Shown here: positions 23,870 to 56,410 of the stretch, piece by piece
How the letters are laid out: each line of letters starts with the position of its first letter
How positions within the stretch are numbered: the first letter of the stretch is position 1
Source of the DNA: an uncultured Alphaproteobacteria bacterium
Lineage (GTDB): Bacteria; Pseudomonadota; Alphaproteobacteria; Rs-D84
DNA: 64,000 nucleotides
NCBI GenBank assembly: GCA_947367055.1
Contig: CANBCI010000002.1
Span: forward strand, 142,005 to 206,004
Direction of reading: 5' to 3'
The notes under the pieces: generated by a model
The model's input: only the letters and a program-made list of their open reading frames with translations
Database searches by the model: none
What the model was told of the DNA's origin: nothing
Position numbers and translations under genes: made by a program

Positions 23870-24391
23870 TTATGGATTTATCGGTGTAATAATTTCTATA
23901 TCACCTATGTCAAGTTTGTTTGAATAATTACAATTGCTGGTATAAAAAAATGTGCCGGAATCATCGGTTTGCACCTGGTTGGCCGGGATATAGCAATCGG
24001 TTATTTTTGTCGCATTGCCAATCGGACTGGTTCCCGGTTCGGGACATTTAGTGCAGTTCCCGTTCGTGCCATATGTACCGTTGCCGCATATTTGTATTAC
24101 GGGCGTATCGCCGCCACTGCCCGGGCAGCATGTGTCGCACATTGATGCACTTGGTGCGGTGCATGATGTACTGCATTTGTATGCGTCTGTGTCTGACATG
24201 GTCATGCACTCCGAAGGAGTCCTTACGCACAGCGTGACGCATTGTTGCAATGTTTCCTTGCAGCAAGTGCCCTCGCAATATTTGCCATATTCATTTTGTG
24301 CACACGTTAGTGCGGCGGCGTTTTTTGTGCCAATCACTGGCGCGATTGTCATTGCGCATAATAATGTGCAGAATAACGATTTGAATTTCAT
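23870..24391 (-). CDS. Exported Cys-rich protein A with shared C-terminal module
   Basis: A 173-residue protein with a signal peptide (KFKSLFCTLLCAMTIAPVIG). The mature part holds about 19 cysteines, often paired (GTCCKETL, DTCCPGS), suggesting disulfide cross-linking outside the cytoplasm. Near the C-terminus it has CTKCPEPG, a TDC, then DDSGTFFYTSNCNY, the module shared with the proteins at 25685, 28402 and 47627. Function unknown. AAGGGGAAAAC precedes the ATG. Expression is likely controlled by the structured leader at 24392..24670. Confidence 0.85.
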   Translation of the reverse strand: MKFKSLFCTLLCAMTIAPVIGTKNAAALTCAQNEYGKYCEGTCCKETLQQCVTLCVRTPSECMTMSDTDAYKCSTSCTAPSASMCDTCCPGSGGDTPVIQICGNGTYGTNGNCTKCPEPGTSPIGNATKITDCYIPANQVQTDDSGTFFYTSNCNYSNKLDIGDIEIITPINP

Positions 24392-24670
24392 GTTTTCCCC
24401 TTTCCTTGTGTTTTCAAAAACAAAACCGTCAAGACATTGACGGTCGGGGAGTTAAGAAAATCATAATCAAAGAAATGACCCCTGTGGTTTTTACACATAA
24501 ATGGTGTGCTGTTATATAACCACAGGCTCCCCGACTGATTTATGTTATCGGGGGCAGTACAATAAATGGCGCAATTGCGCCGCAATGTACCGCGGACATA
24601 GCGGACGCATGCGTCCACCACTTTGATTAAGGGTTTTCTTACGACCCGAACCCAATGCCCATTTGGATCC
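24392..24670 (-). promoter_or_regulatory. Structured leader RNA, copy A
   Basis: From the predicted start near 24670 the minus-strand RNA contains: the helix P1 5' strand (24642-24621) pairing with its 3' strand (24472-24451), including TAATCAAAG with CTTTGATTA and TAAGAAAA with TTTTCTTA; a C-rich strand (24554-24548); a G-rich switch strand AGTCGGGGAG (24536-24527); a pseudoknot strand CTCCCCGACC (24451-24442) just past P1; and a terminator hairpin ACCGTCA/TGACGGT with TTTT (24444-24421). An inner stem CCTGTGGTT/AACCACAGG follows the switch strand. The ATG at 24391 lies about 30 bases beyond the terminator. Confidence 0.75.
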
Positions 24671-24676
24671 ATAAAA

Positions 24677-24705
24677 ATTATACAAAATCGTGTTATATAA
24701 GACAA
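24677..24705 (-). promoter_or_regulatory. Promoter of leader copy A
   Basis: Minus strand TTGTCT (24705-24700), 17-base spacer, TATAAT (24682-24677). Confidence 0.75.
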
Positions 24706-24803
24706 GCCTTTTTATCGCATGGGGTTTCACCAAACCGTCCCGCCATTTTGCAAGCAAAAAGATGCACACCGCGCCGTGCGTGGCGTGCATGGAAATCGGC
24801 AAG

Positions 24804-24832
24804 CAAAAAATCCCCGTTTGGGGATTTTTTGC
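24804..24832. terminator. Terminator of the glycine-zipper lipoprotein gene
   Basis: AAAAAATCCCC-GTTT-GGGGATTTTTT, symmetric with T-runs on both strands. Confidence 0.85.
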
Positions 24833-24849
24833 TGATTGTCCATATGAAT

Positions 24850-25308
24850 TTAATCGCGGGGGATTATGCGGGCGCGTTCACCGTATTCCGCATCCAAGAC
24901 ATAAACTTTTTGCCCGACGGAAAATTTAACATCCGTTCCCTGGGTCAGTGTAATCGCCTTGCCGGAATTCAGTTTTACAATGTATTCGTACCCATTTTGT
25001 GCGGACAGACCTTCCTGGGCCTTGGCGCCAATCATTCCGCCCAGCACCGCGCCGCCAACCGCGCCGATGACATTCACGGCCGAATTTCCCCCAATCATGG
25101 AACCCGCGGCGCCGCCCGCAATTCCGCCGGCCAGTGATCCTACACCGCCGTTTTCGGTTGCAATGCGCACTTGGCGTACATTGATTATGGTGCCTTCGGC
25201 CACGGAATTTATTTGCCCGGCGGCCGACGTTTCATAACGGTCGGTATTCAGATTTGCCGCACACGCCGTCAGCACCGCCGCCATAAATATTGCCAGAATC
25301 TTTTTCAT
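24850..25308 (-). CDS. Glycine-zipper outer-membrane lipoprotein (SlyB-like)
   Basis: A 152-residue protein with a lipoprotein signal peptide ending in the lipobox LTAC (Cys 16), so lipidated and probably in the outer membrane. A glycine-zipper pair (GGIAGGAAGSMIGG and GAVGGAVLGGMIG) spans residues 58-95, followed by a small beta domain (YIVKLNSGKAITLTQG). The organisation matches SlyB/Pcp 17-kDa antigen-type lipoproteins that support envelope integrity. AAGGAGTAAAA precedes the ATG. Confidence 0.85.
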   Translation of the reverse strand: MKKILAIFMAAVLTACAANLNTDRYETSAAGQINSVAEGTIINVRQVRIATENGGVGSLAGGIAGGAAGSMIGGNSAVNVIGAVGGAVLGGMIGAKAQEGLSAQNGYEYIVKLNSGKAITLTQGTDVKFSVGQKVYVLDAEYGERARIIPRD

Positions 25309-25381: not shown

Positions 25382-25410
25382 TTGTGTTTGGTTCGGGCAT
25401 TGGATATAAT
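25382..25410 (+). promoter_or_regulatory. Promoter of leader copy B
   Basis: TTGTGT (25382), 17-base spacer, TATAAT (25405). Confidence 0.75.
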
Positions 25411-25416
25411 AAAAAT

Positions 25417-25684
25417 TGAACCCAAAGGGATATTGGGTTCGGGGTCTTCAAAAAGCCCATAATCGAAATAGCGTGCGTGTGACGCATGCTATATCCACGG
25501 TGCGTACGGCGTGAACGCAGTACTGTTGCCCCGATTTATTCAAAGTCGGGGAGCGTGTGGCTATATAACAGCGCGTTTTTAGCGTAAAGGCCGCATGGGT
25601 CATTTTTCGATTATGATTTTTTGAACTCCCCGACCGCCATGTCCTTGGCGGTTTTGCTTGGAATACGCATAGTAGAGGGAAAAA
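25417..25684 (+). promoter_or_regulatory. Structured leader RNA, copy B
   Basis: The P1 5' strand at 25447..25468 (TTCAAAAA and CATAATCGAAA) pairs with the 3' strand at 25605..25625 (TTTCGATTATG and TTTTTGAA); the 11-bp match CATAATCGAAA/TTTCGATTATG is perfect. The C-rich strand CCCCGA is at 25529..25534, the switch strand GTCGGGGAG at 25545..25553 and the pseudoknot strand CTCCCCGACC at 25626..25635. The terminator ACCGCCA/TGGCGGTTTT is at 25633..25655. The ATG is 30 bases further on. Confidence 0.78.
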
Positions 25685-26518
25685 ATGATTAAGAAATTTA
25701 TGGCCGCTTTTATATTATTCTGTGGTATAACATACGATGTGTTTGCCGTTGGTGGGTGTAATGGCGATTATGGCAATAAATGTCCCGCCAATGGCGGTGC
25801 CGGTTCAGCTTGGAAAGATTATACTGTGGATACATCATTGAACGAGGAAATGTGCGGTGTGCGGGCATATGATGACGCCACGGGGGTTAAATATATGTAC
25901 GCGCCTGCCGATGATATGTGCGTGTGTAATATCGCAGATGACCCGCATATAAGTTTCTATTGGGGGGCCGGATGCTATTGTGATGATGGCTATTATCTGG
26001 CGAATTCTGATTCAACTGAATGCACAAAATGTCCGTCTAATTATCCGCTATCAATTGGTTTTCGCCAGACTGGGGATGATACTGGTTCTGTTGGCAATTG
26101 GGGAAATGATATGGACGCCTGCTATCGTAATTTTGTCGCGCGCGGGCAAAATGTTTCAATAGATGTAATGGAATATTCTTACGGAACCGGATATATAAAG
26201 TCGGTCACATGCGCAAACGGTTATTATACAACGGAAAATTGGGTTGATACAGAATATGATTTATACTATGAAGACAATGACGGCAATGCGGGATACGCAT
26301 GCAAACCGGTGGGCGAAGAATATTATTCAACTGCGGACAATTCGCGTGAAAAGTGCCCGTCATATGTAAATGCGTCCGGTGAAACGGTGCCCGGACATAC
26401 GACCGGGGCTGGCGATGGCGCGGCATCAATAACAGATTGCGCCATTGCGGAAAGTGAAATATTCAGCGATGAAACGGGAACATTTGTTTATGACGGCGGA
26501 TGCAAGTATTCAAAATAA
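25685..26518 (+). CDS. Exported Cys-rich protein B with shared C-terminal module
   Basis: A 277-residue protein with a signal peptide (IKKFMAAFILFCGITYDVFA). The mature protein is acidic, Tyr/Gly/Asp-rich, with about 16 cysteines in EGF-like spacing (CVCNIADD, GCYCDDGYYLANS, CTKCPSNYP). It ends with REKCPSYVN, a TDC, then DETGTFVYDGGCKY, the same module as proteins A, C1 and D. Function unknown, probably surface or periplasmic. GAGGGAAAAA precedes the ATG; regulation is probably through leader copy B. Confidence 0.85.
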   Translation: MIKKFMAAFILFCGITYDVFAVGGCNGDYGNKCPANGGAGSAWKDYTVDTSLNEEMCGVRAYDDATGVKYMYAPADDMCVCNIADDPHISFYWGAGCYCDDGYYLANSDSTECTKCPSNYPLSIGFRQTGDDTGSVGNWGNDMDACYRNFVARGQNVSIDVMEYSYGTGYIKSVTCANGYYTTENWVDTEYDLYYEDNDGNAGYACKPVGEEYYSTADNSREKCPSYVNASGETVPGHTTGAGDGAASITDCAIAESEIFSDETGTFVYDGGCKYSK

Positions 26519-28401: not shown

Positions 28402-28677
28402 TTATTCTTTATAATAACAGTTGGATGTGAATTTGAACGTCCCGCTTGTATCTGTATAAGTACTGGTGGTCGTGGCATAGCAAGATGTCCGGCCACCGGT
28501 ATTTTTATCGGGGCTGGTGCCGGTGACGCCGCCGGATGTCGGGCACTGTTTGCATGTGGTGCCGTCCAGATAGTATCCCGCGGCGCATGAATATGTTGTG
28601 CTGGAAACCGTGCATGTGTCGCCATATGTCGGTATGATTGGCATTGAAAGTATAAAAAACAGACAGGCTTTTTTCAT
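28402..28677 (-). CDS. Exported Cys-rich protein C1 with shared C-terminal module
   Basis: A 91-residue protein with a signal peptide (KKACLFFILSMPIIPTYG). It is almost entirely the shared module: CAAGYYLDGTTCKQCP, a TSC, then DTSGTFKFTSNCYY near the end. This is the minimal version of the family. It lies 31 bases downstream of protein C2 in the same transcription unit, so leader copy C probably controls both. Function unknown. Confidence 0.82.
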   Translation of the reverse strand: MKKACLFFILSMPIIPTYGDTCTVSSTTYSCAAGYYLDGTTCKQCPTSGGVTGTSPDKNTGGRTSCYATTTSTYTDTSGTFKFTSNCYYKE

Positions 28678-28708: not shown

Positions 28709-29086
28709 CTATAAAATTCCTACGGATGATGCTACGCACATAAGTTTTTTCCCGCATGTATCCGTTGCTGTATATTGCATACATTGTTCTATTGTGGTTG
28801 TCGGGCTGCATGAGCCGTATTTTGTTGTCGTATAACGATGTGTTGCGGAATCATATGTTGTAGTGCTGGCGCGGGTACAGGTATTGCAAAGTGTCCCACC
28901 CAGCGACCAGCCAGTCGGGCAAGTCGGTACATTTGTATTTGCCGGACAGCAGTACCCGTTTGTTGTACCGGCCGGGCATTCGCAGCCGTTTAAATTACAA
29001 CTGCCGCACCTGGAAAGTGCGCCAAATCCATGACCAGTATAAAACATAATGGCGGCGCATAAAATGCCGGGCATAATAATTTTCAT
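28709..29086 (-). CDS. Exported Cys-rich protein C2
   Basis: A 125-residue protein with a signal peptide (KIIMPGILCAAIMFYTGHGFG). About 14 cysteines follow (CGSCNLNGCECPAG, CCPANTNVPTCP, CNTCTR, CGKKLMC). It lacks the DxSGTF tail seen in its downstream partner. ATG 29086 is chosen because the signal peptide begins there with GGAG upstream and the leader ends just before. First gene of a two-gene unit; function unknown. Confidence 0.82.
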   Translation of the reverse strand: MKIIMPGILCAAIMFYTGHGFGALSRCGSCNLNGCECPAGTTNGYCCPANTNVPTCPTGWSLGGTLCNTCTRASTTTYDSATHRYTTTKYGSCSPTTTIEQCMQYTATDTCGKKLMCVASSVGIL

Positions 29087-29356
29087 GTTTTTCTCCTTCC
29101 GTTGTTTTGTTGTGACAAAGCAAAAACCACCAAAAGATTTTGGCGGTCGGGAAGTTAGAAAAATCATAAATATGAATGACCCCGCGGCTTTTGGCGAACC
29201 TTATCACCGCGGCTTCCCGGCCGTATTGGTCGGGATTGGAAAATATATGGCGCCAAACGCGCCGACATATTTTCGTGTCGGATAACGGCGGTTGCGAAAC
29301 CGCTGCATATTTATGGGATTTTCTAAGTCCCGAATCCAATATCCCTATTGAATTCA
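29087..29356 (-). promoter_or_regulatory. Structured leader RNA, copy C
   Basis: The P1 5' strand (29328-29306) pairs with the 3' strand (29174-29155): CATAAATATG with CATATTTATG is a perfect 10-bp match, followed by TTAGAAAA with TTTTCTAA. The C-rich strand TCCCGACC is at 29235-29228, the switch GGCCGGGAAG at 29222-29213 and the pseudoknot strand CTTCCCGACC at 29154-29145. The terminator ACCGCCAAAA/TTTTGGTGGT with TTTTT is at 29147-29122. The local inner stem is CCGCGG/CCGCGG. Confidence 0.75.
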
Positions 29357-29362
29357 TTGTGA

Positions 29363-29391
29363 ATTATAAATTAAGTCGGAAATAAAAACAA
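29363..29391 (-). promoter_or_regulatory. Promoter of leader copy C
   Basis: Minus strand TTGTTT (29391-29386), 17-base spacer, TATAAT (29368-29363). Confidence 0.72.
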
Positions 29392-47344: not shown

Positions 47345-47373
47345 TTGTGTTTTTCGCACTGATTATTTATAAT
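47345..47373 (+). promoter_or_regulatory. Promoter of leader copy D
   Basis: TTGTGT (47345), 17-base spacer, TATAAT (47368), immediately after the xseA stop. Confidence 0.75.
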
Positions 47374-47379
47374 AATTTC

Positions 47380-47626
47380 TGAAACCATATGGATGATGGC
47401 TTCAGGGACTTAAGAAATCCTTTATTTCGGCGATGGTGTTCCATCGTAATCCGCCCCGGCGGTCGTCGCATTGGCGCGCGCCGTTTGCATTTGCAGCCCG
47501 ACCAAAAATAAACCGGTCGGGGATCCGTCGGCTATATGTTGAAGGCCGCGGGGTCATTCCGAAATATGATTTTCTTAATCCCCGACCGCCATGCCTTTGG
47601 CGGTTTTATAAAGCGAGGGGGATAAA
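47380..47626 (+). promoter_or_regulatory. Structured leader RNA, copy D
   Basis: The P1 5' strand at 47410..47430 pairs with the 3' strand at 47559..47578 (TTAAGAAA with TTTCTTAA-type, TATTTCG with CGAAATA). The C-rich strand CCCGACC is at 47497..47503, the switch GGTCGGGGAT at 47515..47524 and the pseudoknot strand ATCCCCGACC at 47578..47587. The terminator ACCGCCA/TGGCGGTTTTA is at 47585..47607. The ATG follows 20 bases later. Confidence 0.75.
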
Positions 47627-48337
47627 ATGAAAAAATATATAACCGCGTTATGTGTTGCCATTGCGATGTTTGCAGGGAATTCGCGGGCGGACGATTGTCC
47701 GATAAACGGGAATATGTCGTCAAATTATTGTTATGTTGATCCGGATATTCTGGGCGATGACTGTCTGGAGCTCAATTGGTCCGGCGATTGCACGTCGTCT
47801 GCACTGCCGGTTGATTCCAGTTGCACCACGGCATGTAAAACATGGCAGCAGACAAGAACGCAGACAAAGTCTGTGGTAAACGGCGCGTATGCGACAAAAT
47901 ATTGGCCCGTATTGGAAATTAGTTGCAATAGCGGCAGCGGTACGATTTATTGCAATATAAACGACCAGAACGGCAGTACCTATTCCAGCGTCAAAGTTTG
48001 CGCATCGGGGTATTATGGTGATGGAAAAACATGCACAAAGTGTCCTGCAAACGCGACATGCAGCGGTGAAGGAAACACGACGTTTACCTGTAACAGCGGG
48101 TATTGCAACACAGGTACCGCATGTGTGGCGCGGCCGGCCAATTCCACCTGCAGCGGTTCAACATTCAAATGTAATGCCGGGTATTATAAAAACGGTACGT
48201 CATGCCAAGCGTGCCCGTCCGGCGGAACCAGTGTTGCCGGCGCAACGGCGCAATCGCAATGTTTTATTCGTTCGGGTGCCTCGCAAAGCGATAGAAGCGG
48301 AAAGTGGCAATACACTTCAAATTGTTATTATAATTAG
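47627..48337 (+). CDS. Exported Cys-rich protein D with shared C-terminal module
   Basis: A 236-residue protein with a signal peptide (KKYITALCVAIAMFAGNSRA). The mature protein holds about 22 cysteines in repeats such as CASGYYGDGKTCTKCP, CSGEGNTTFTC and CNAGYYKNGTSCQACP, resembling EGF/TNFR-like repeats. It ends with QCFIR...DRSGKWQYTSNCYYN, the module shared with proteins A, B and C1. GAGGGGGATAAA precedes the ATG. A terminator shared with recN follows. Confidence 0.85.
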   Translation: MKKYITALCVAIAMFAGNSRADDCPINGNMSSNYCYVDPDILGDDCLELNWSGDCTSSALPVDSSCTTACKTWQQTRTQTKSVVNGAYATKYWPVLEISCNSGSGTIYCNINDQNGSTYSSVKVCASGYYGDGKTCTKCPANATCSGEGNTTFTCNSGYCNTGTACVARPANSTCSGSTFKCNAGYYKNGTSCQACPSGGTSVAGATAQSQCFIRSGASQSDRSGKWQYTSNCYYN

Positions 48338-55797: not shown

Positions 55798-55857
55798 AAA
55801 TCCCCAACGGGTCCCACGCAAAAAAGTTTGCGTGGGTGTTTTATTGGGGGATTTTTA
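55797..55857. terminator. Nested bidirectional terminator
   Basis: AAAAATCCCC pairs with GGGGGATTTTT around an inner CCCACGCAAA/TTTGCGTGGG hairpin, placed between convergent genes. Confidence 0.8.
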
Positions 55858-56181
55858 CTGCAACACAGGGCTTTGTGTAATTTTGATTTTTTGCAATTTG
55901 TTGTGCAGTTCCATCGCCTTGGTGTGCATATGTCGCCATTGGCGCGTCATATATTGATAATCGTTTATCATATAACGCGTGTGCATCATCAGCAGTCCCA
56001 TTTGGAATAATGTATCCAACAGGTGTTTTGGAATCTCAACCTCGCCATTTTCAAATAATGTTAGTTCTTCACGGGTTATTTTCAGCATGCGCGCCGTATC
56101 TTCGTGCAGGATTGACGCGTTTAATCGCGCCTGCTTTAGCGATTTGCCAATTTGCCATGCCTTCATTGTTAATGCAGCCAT
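55855..56181 (-). CDS. XRE-like HTH protein
   Basis: A 108-residue protein. Residues about 10-65 resemble an XRE helix-turn-helix (IGKSLKQARLNASILHEDTARMLKITREELTLFENG), followed by a helical tail with a run of His/Met/Gln. It probably binds DNA; target unknown. GGAGTGAAAA precedes the ATG. It lies behind leader copy E, so it is expected to share that regulation. Confidence 0.75.
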   Translation of the reverse strand: MAALTMKAWQIGKSLKQARLNASILHEDTARMLKITREELTLFENGEVEIPKHLLDTLFQMGLLMMHTRYMINDYQYMTRQWRHMHTKAMELHNKLQKIKITQSPVLQ

Positions 56182-56376
56182 TTTTCACTCCATTTGTTTG
56201 GTTAATTAAAAACAAAACCGTTTGGAAAAACCAAACGGCTGGAGGTTAAGAACTATTAAACCAATAGTGCTGTTTATTTAGATATATCACAGCCCTCCAA
56301 CCAATGGAGTTTTAATTTTATGTCTTTCGACAGGTTTAAAAGGTTCTTACACCTTGCGCCGGTCTTATCCTTTGCG
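56182..56376 (-). promoter_or_regulatory. Structured leader RNA, copy E (short form)
   Basis: The P1 5' strand (56349-56333: TAAGAAC, TTAAACC) pairs with the 3' strand (56262-56247: GGTTTAA, GTTCTTA). The local hairpin strand ACTCCA is at 56310-56305, the switch GGTTGGAGG at 56302-56294 and the pseudoknot strand CCTCCAGCC at 56245-56237 (nine pairs including one G-U). The terminator CCGTTTGG/CCAAACGG with TTTTG is at 56239-56213. It lacks the long variable arm of the other copies. Confidence 0.7.
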
Positions 56377-56382
56377 ATGTGT

Positions 56383-56410
56383 ATTATATCATATAATTTA
56401 CCGATTGCAA
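56383..56410 (-). promoter_or_regulatory. Promoter of leader copy E
   Basis: Minus strand TTGCAA (56410-56405), 16-base spacer, TATAAT (56388-56383). Confidence 0.7.

Follow-up and report, generated by a model that had tools for sequence, protein, structure and literature searches.

The CI RNA of phage P4 pairs with seqA upstream and with seqC downstream, and termination results; IsrK/STnc1160 is comparable (PMC4825925). The c4 RNA of phages P1 and P7, which is excised by RNase P, targets the antirepressor start site with two segments, a' and b' (PMC5320573). A further RNA, sRNA-Xcc1, has been described as an sRNA that acts in trans, and integron cassettes carry it upstream of symE (PMC12444791). 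Here we describe leader RNAs, repeated through the genome of a gut bacterium, that are probably antisense leaders which the host took over from phages and which work in the manner of P4 CI, P1 c4 and IsrK.

Five leader copies in the window and their relatives in the genome

The window (the whole stretch of DNA analyzed, 64,000 nucleotides) belongs to a Candidatus Enterousia-like gut bacterium with a reduced genome of 959,553 bases (0.96 Mb), whose neighbours in a public collection include Candidatus Enterousia species. A sequence-only reading had proposed five leader copies in the order promoter, 5' strand of a long-range helix P1, variable arm, C-rich strand, G-rich strand, inner stem, P1 3' strand, C-rich strand, terminator hairpin and start codon. 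All five copies are real and all have this order:

24392-24690, minus strand: copy c1, subtype A; leader of a 173 aa Cys-rich secreted protein (gene 23870-24391)
25390-25684, plus strand: copy c2, subtype A
29087-29380, minus strand: copy c3, subtype A; leader of a secreted protein (gene 28709-29086)
47352-47626, plus strand: copy c4, subtype A; leader of a secreted protein (gene 47627-48337)
56182-56400, minus strand: copy c5, subtype B; leader of a 108 aa HTH-like protein (gene 55855-56181)

Copies c1, c2, c3 and c4 are clear homologues from sequence alone, by comparison and by sequence profile. Copy c5 was missed by a sequence profile of the other window copies (2.4 bits) and represents a second subtype, matching a type-B model that includes c5 itself with 83.8 bits (C2:198216-198305) beside 55 other genome places. 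The model of the gammaproteobacterial rimP leader matched 24756-24861 on the minus strand weakly and below its cut-off (25.6 of 47 bits), probably by chance.

Taking c2 as reference, the leader begins with a promoter-like pair, followed by a 5' hairpin, a GGG..CCC mini-hairpin bearing strand b, strand a (the P1 5' strand), a variable arm and the C-rich strand C1. Its 3' part comprises the G strand, hairpin H1, with an interior conserved among leaders (ATATAACA..AAA), hairpin H2 carrying a' (the P1 3' strand), b', the C-rich strand C2, the terminator, a Shine-Dalgarno sequence and the start codon. The features of c2, with the evidence for each in brackets, are as follows:

25382-25410, plus strand: promoter-like TTGTGT, 17 bases, TATAAT (sequence)
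25418-25440, plus strand: 5' hairpin GAACCCAA/TTGGGTTC (consensus fold of c1-c4)
25441-25458, plus strand: mini-hairpin GGG..CCC with b in its loop (TTCAAAAAG, 25447-25455) (b:b' covariation, own and related genomes)
25458-25468, plus strand: strand a, CATAATCGAAA (self-over-cross pairing tests)
25469-25491, plus strand: variable arm (sequence, consensus fold)
25529-25535, plus strand: C1 (CCCCGAT), partner of the G strand (C1:G self over cross, 0/20000 permutations)
25545-25634, plus strand: sRNA-Xcc1-like antisense module (RF02221, 32.9 bits, positions 1-87; models R1/R2)
25545-25553, plus strand: G strand, within the antisense module
25555-25596, plus strand: hairpin H1, within the module
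25600-25616, plus strand: hairpin H2, within the module, with a' (25605-25615) in its loop
25617-25625, plus strand: b', within the module
25626-25634, plus strand: C2, within the module
25633-25655, plus strand: intrinsic terminator, its base overlapping the end of C2 and competing with G:C2 (consensus fold)
25685-26518, plus strand: gene for a 277 aa Cys-rich protein with a signal peptide

A subtype-A model matched 35 places in the genome and a subtype-B model 56, giving a union of about 63 (A matches to E 0.05, B matches to about 7e-4) and a density of about one copy per 15 kb. Matches occurred in all 23 genus mates and in 10 of 16 other genomes of the order in our genome sample, with up to 49 matches in one genome by the A model alone. 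Among 30 genome copies inspected, a terminator hairpin follows C2 in 30/30, a TTG-N16..18-TATAAT-like pair lies 5' of 17 (c1-c4 included), and most lie 11-33 bases 5' of a start codon. By one crude rule, a signal-peptide-like start was found in 22/29 of the downstream (cargo) proteins versus 8/56 window genes, and 16/29 versus 5/56 were Cys-rich, the 56 window genes including four cargo genes. Other cargo comprises a trypsin-like protease, an outer-membrane barrel, a GT-D glycosyltransferase and an XRE-type HTH protein.

Pairing of strands within copies

All P1 pairs quoted in the sequence-only reading were found, and the strands vary among copies with complementarity kept. P1 does not stand alone as a long-range helix, since a short hairpin (TCAT...ATGA or CTAT...ATAG) encloses its 3' strand in the loop. 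New here is a second pairing with covariation, b:b', which joins the loop of the 5' mini-hairpin with the stretch before the last C-rich strand; in c5 the partners, read by eye, are TAAGAAC/GTTCTTA for b and TTAAACC/GGTTTAA for a.

We compared the best ordered b' plus a' pairing of each copy with its own upstream region against that with every other copy's. Across 30 genome copies the self score was 35.4 versus 27.6 for cross pairs (0/20000 permutations), the own partner ranking first of 30 in 23 copies; an earlier set of 17 copies, for which the c5 partner lay outside the stretch searched, gave 34.7 versus 27.9 (0/20000). The pairing of a'/b' with the upstream b-a element was likewise reached by 0/20000 permutations in 18 copies of other genomes. 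Cross pairs received the identical best-match search, which excludes match-picking as the cause of the self excess. The two-strand ordered test was chosen because, with wider strands, matches of the conserved H1 region in every copy had kept the self/cross ranks weak. An apparent orthologous leader in a relative (L105) carries a double compensatory change, from CATAATTGAA/TTCAATTATG to CATAATAGAA/TTCTATTATG. With P1 and b:b' together far above chance (0/20000 permutations), the proposed selection for a structured leader RNA is supported.

The C-rich and G-rich strands form two alternatives, C1:G or G:C2. The C1:G pairing covaries (self over cross, 0/20000 permutations), and G:C2 is present in every copy with correctly placed ends; C2 was misplaced in a few copies (e.g., L075 and L086), a source of noise that works against, not for, the pairing result.

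Relation to sRNA-Xcc1 and to phage antisense RNAs

No Rfam family reached its cut-off for the window leaders, and neither T-box nor other Rfam leaders matched. The sequence-only reading knew of no described RNA class with such a layout; that claim is not supported, in view of a full-length sub-threshold relation to sRNA-Xcc1 (RF02221) and of the layouts of phage P4 CI, P1 c4 and Gifsy IsrK. At permissive settings sRNA-Xcc1 was the top sub-threshold family, best of 4227, for c2, c3 and c4, the model being aligned over its full length (positions 1-87) with its three-helix fold. The RF02221 cut-off of 53 bits was reached by none (22.4-32.9 bits in the window, 42 at best in the genome), and 12 further genome places matched (best 42 bits, E 1.9e-6). 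Reciprocally, model R1, built from copies of the studied genome only and without any RF02221 member, detected 17/30 authentic Xcc1 loci at their coordinates (E<=0.11), with best E values of about 1e-7 to 1e-6 at listed Xcc1 sites; a further L033 copy reached 1e-8. Sub-threshold scores, reciprocal matches and common architecture suggest that the leaders are distant relatives of sRNA-Xcc1. Both groups have a G-rich/C-rich closing helix, two hairpins, CCCGACC plus an NCCA-like end and, as found in the present analysis, an upstream b-a element. The genome copies differ in scoring under the cut-off, in their altered H1 and in lying 5' of secreted-protein genes without a detectable downstream target site.

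Authentic sRNA-Xcc1 was found above cut-off in 39/398 Pseudomonadota genomes. The upstream flank of these loci, in Proteobacteria and prophages, carries a mini-hairpin displaying b in its loop, followed by strand a and an intrinsic terminator. The next gene often has a further b-a copy, the third, around the Shine-Dalgarno sequence of its start region, as at L042 (upstream site CCGAAAACC..CAACAAG; RNA CTTGTTG-CGG-TTTTCGG; start region CCGAAAAGGAGCAACAAGACC-ATG). The next genes include those for Bro-N, KilA-N, P22_AR_N, Phage_pRha and SymE proteins, and often encode a phage antirepressor. Pairing of a'/b' was reached by 0/20000 permutations both with the upstream b-a element and with the downstream start region, in 30 proteobacterial loci and likewise in 48 distinct viral loci. 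Of the proteobacterial loci, 23/30 have an upstream unit that closes with a terminator of its own (2.3 expected), versus 11/30 copies of the studied genome (3.9 expected). The Xcc1 H1 motif has at least 120 matches in viral contigs, and the exact subtype A and subtype B patterns were absent from the viral contigs searched. At L022, some 1.3 kb separate a sub-threshold match to c4-2 RNA (RF02944; 2890-2958, minus strand) from an sRNA-Xcc1 locus, which looks like two antisense-RNA systems close by in an apparent prophage.

The likeness to P4 CI, drawn at the level of layout, lies in an antisense module placed between an upstream and, in the phage relatives, a downstream complementary site, with termination as an output that is modeled for the leaders described here. 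A seqA-type upstream site is present by the pairing tests in the studied genome, in other genomes and at viral loci, but no seqC counterpart was detected in the studied genome (no signal for a downstream site, 7217/20000 permutations). With the P1/P7 C4 (RF01695) and c4-2 (RF02944) RNAs the leaders share two antisense segments and, in the phage relatives, an antirepressor start-region target; the covariance models of these families had no match in the window or in the tested copies, nor at the place of the Xcc1 loci. The closing helix and the NCCA-like 3' bases could possibly allow RNase P to cut at the 5' end of the module, as in phage c4. IsrK/STnc1160 of Gifsy-1 (RF01394) is likewise a 5' RNA with its own terminator and an antirepressor downstream, whose read-through form bears a complementary antisense segment, but IsrK acts via an upstream ORF, and its model had no match to the 5' units tested. 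Membership in the C4 or isrK families was not supported by these covariance-model searches. From the Xcc1 relation and the P4/c4/IsrK layout, we therefore regard the leaders as a branch of a phage system of antisense leaders that has diverged, been adopted by the host and multiplied massively. Because sRNA-Xcc1 lies between two complementary sites, like the P4 immunity RNA, the comparison also offers a testable mechanism for this RNA, whose function lacks a firm assignment in the literature we found. The literature searched, though not exhaustively, held no earlier recognition of a tripartite or P4-CI-like layout of sRNA-Xcc1.

Proposed mechanism, alternative readings and cargo

By its sequence, the leader combines a 5' element (b, a) with a complementary and largely private 3' module (a' in a loop, b') homologous to sRNA-Xcc1, and offers two alternative C/G helices and a terminator directly 5' of the start codon. 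We propose that, in the OFF state, b:b' and a:a' would close over the C1:G hairpin during transcription, leaving C2 free and letting the terminator form. In the ON state, with the 5' element occupied or missing, the module would fold as sRNA-Xcc1 with its G:C2 closing helix, which would take the terminator base so that polymerase reads into the gene. The occupant of the 5' element might be a module that another transcript releases and that acts in trans, or a protein. Folding energies, which disregard co-transcriptional folding, made the closed state (a:a', b:b') more stable than G:C2 in 29/30 leaders, by a mean of 7.9 kcal/mol, and gave a terminator stem of 7.6 pairs in the closed state versus 2.9 with G:C2 forced (30 leaders). 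With the closed state the stabler and the terminator whole in it, 5' pairing should mean termination and its loss read-through; an overlap of just 2-3 bases between G:C2 and the terminator could make the switch weaker than modeled. The largely private codes would prevent interference among copies.

In relatives from phages and mobile elements, the start region of the following gene is a further pairing partner of the module, which should repress that gene as phage c4 does. We considered whether this holds for the host copies too, the released 3' module repressing translation of its own downstream gene and the 5' element serving as a relieving decoy, and think it unlikely, though the best placed of the alternatives. 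It would accord with the b-SD-a-AUG sites that stand out at the proteobacterial and viral loci and with 7-9 base b' matches to the start region in a few genome copies (e.g., L045, ATTTTTCA/TGAAAAAT, and L049, GTGATTTTC/GAAAATCAT); such matches are likely to arise by chance in A-rich start regions, and 25 own-genome start regions gave no convincing self-over-cross signal (b 824/20000, a 4180/20000 permutations). Since a downstream site is undetectable in the studied genome, attenuation in cis is the likelier output, and the weaker upstream terminator (11/30) together with this lack would fit the conversion of a phage RNA that acts in trans into an attenuator that works in cis.

The conserved H1 core could instead be the binding site of a stand-alone, riboswitch-like attenuator sensing a ligand or protein, with a convergent likeness to sRNA-Xcc1, and the placement of leaders on functionally related genes (the 22/29 signal-peptide-like cargo proteins) would suit such a sensor. 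The reciprocal sRNA-Xcc1 model matches, the b-a partner that both groups carry in the same upstream position and the private pairing strands, which diverge freely unlike a conserved binding pocket, make this decidedly improbable. That the leaders are a mobile DNA repeat (MITE or integron-cassette-like) with inverted repeats for DNA transposition has very little going for it: the roughly 63 copies, some in arrays, and the carriage of sRNA-Xcc1 itself in integron cassettes (PMC12444791) speak in its favour, against paired strands that differ among copies with pairing kept, the short fixed distance of most copies to a start codon, just two tyrosine recombinases in the genome as candidate integron integrases and a terminator retained in every inspected copy.

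Returning to the phage-derived antisense leader, a bolder interpretation, for which we would put the chance just short of even, is that a phage immunity RNA has been turned into some 60 largely orthogonal, self-addressed RNA switches with codes of about 6-11 bases, setting the expression of secreted proteins copy by copy. The leaders look like a large host adoption of a phage RNA with diversified private codes, and so many naturally orthogonal pairs would serve studies of RNA attenuators well.

Many cargo proteins of the genome (G000) share a C-terminal motif like SGTYxFTxxCxYxx, without a Pfam family, and perhaps form an undescribed secreted family. In the window, a second small Cys-rich secreted protein without its own leader follows the c3 gene (28402-28677, minus strand) and carries the C-terminal pattern FTSNCYY, as in other cargo proteins. 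Antisense modules also occur in arrays of two to seven or more, in part with no intervening genes, at L193 (G000:C3:144098-145712), L196 (C5:20915-21263) and L194 (C4:26939-27735); these arrays may be the phage-like state ancestral to this lineage's system. An XRE-type HTH gene that begins MSGRPFKP lies downstream of the C3 array (L193), the start after the C5 array (L196) reads alike, and L072 is the leader of an HTH gene resembling that after the C3 array.
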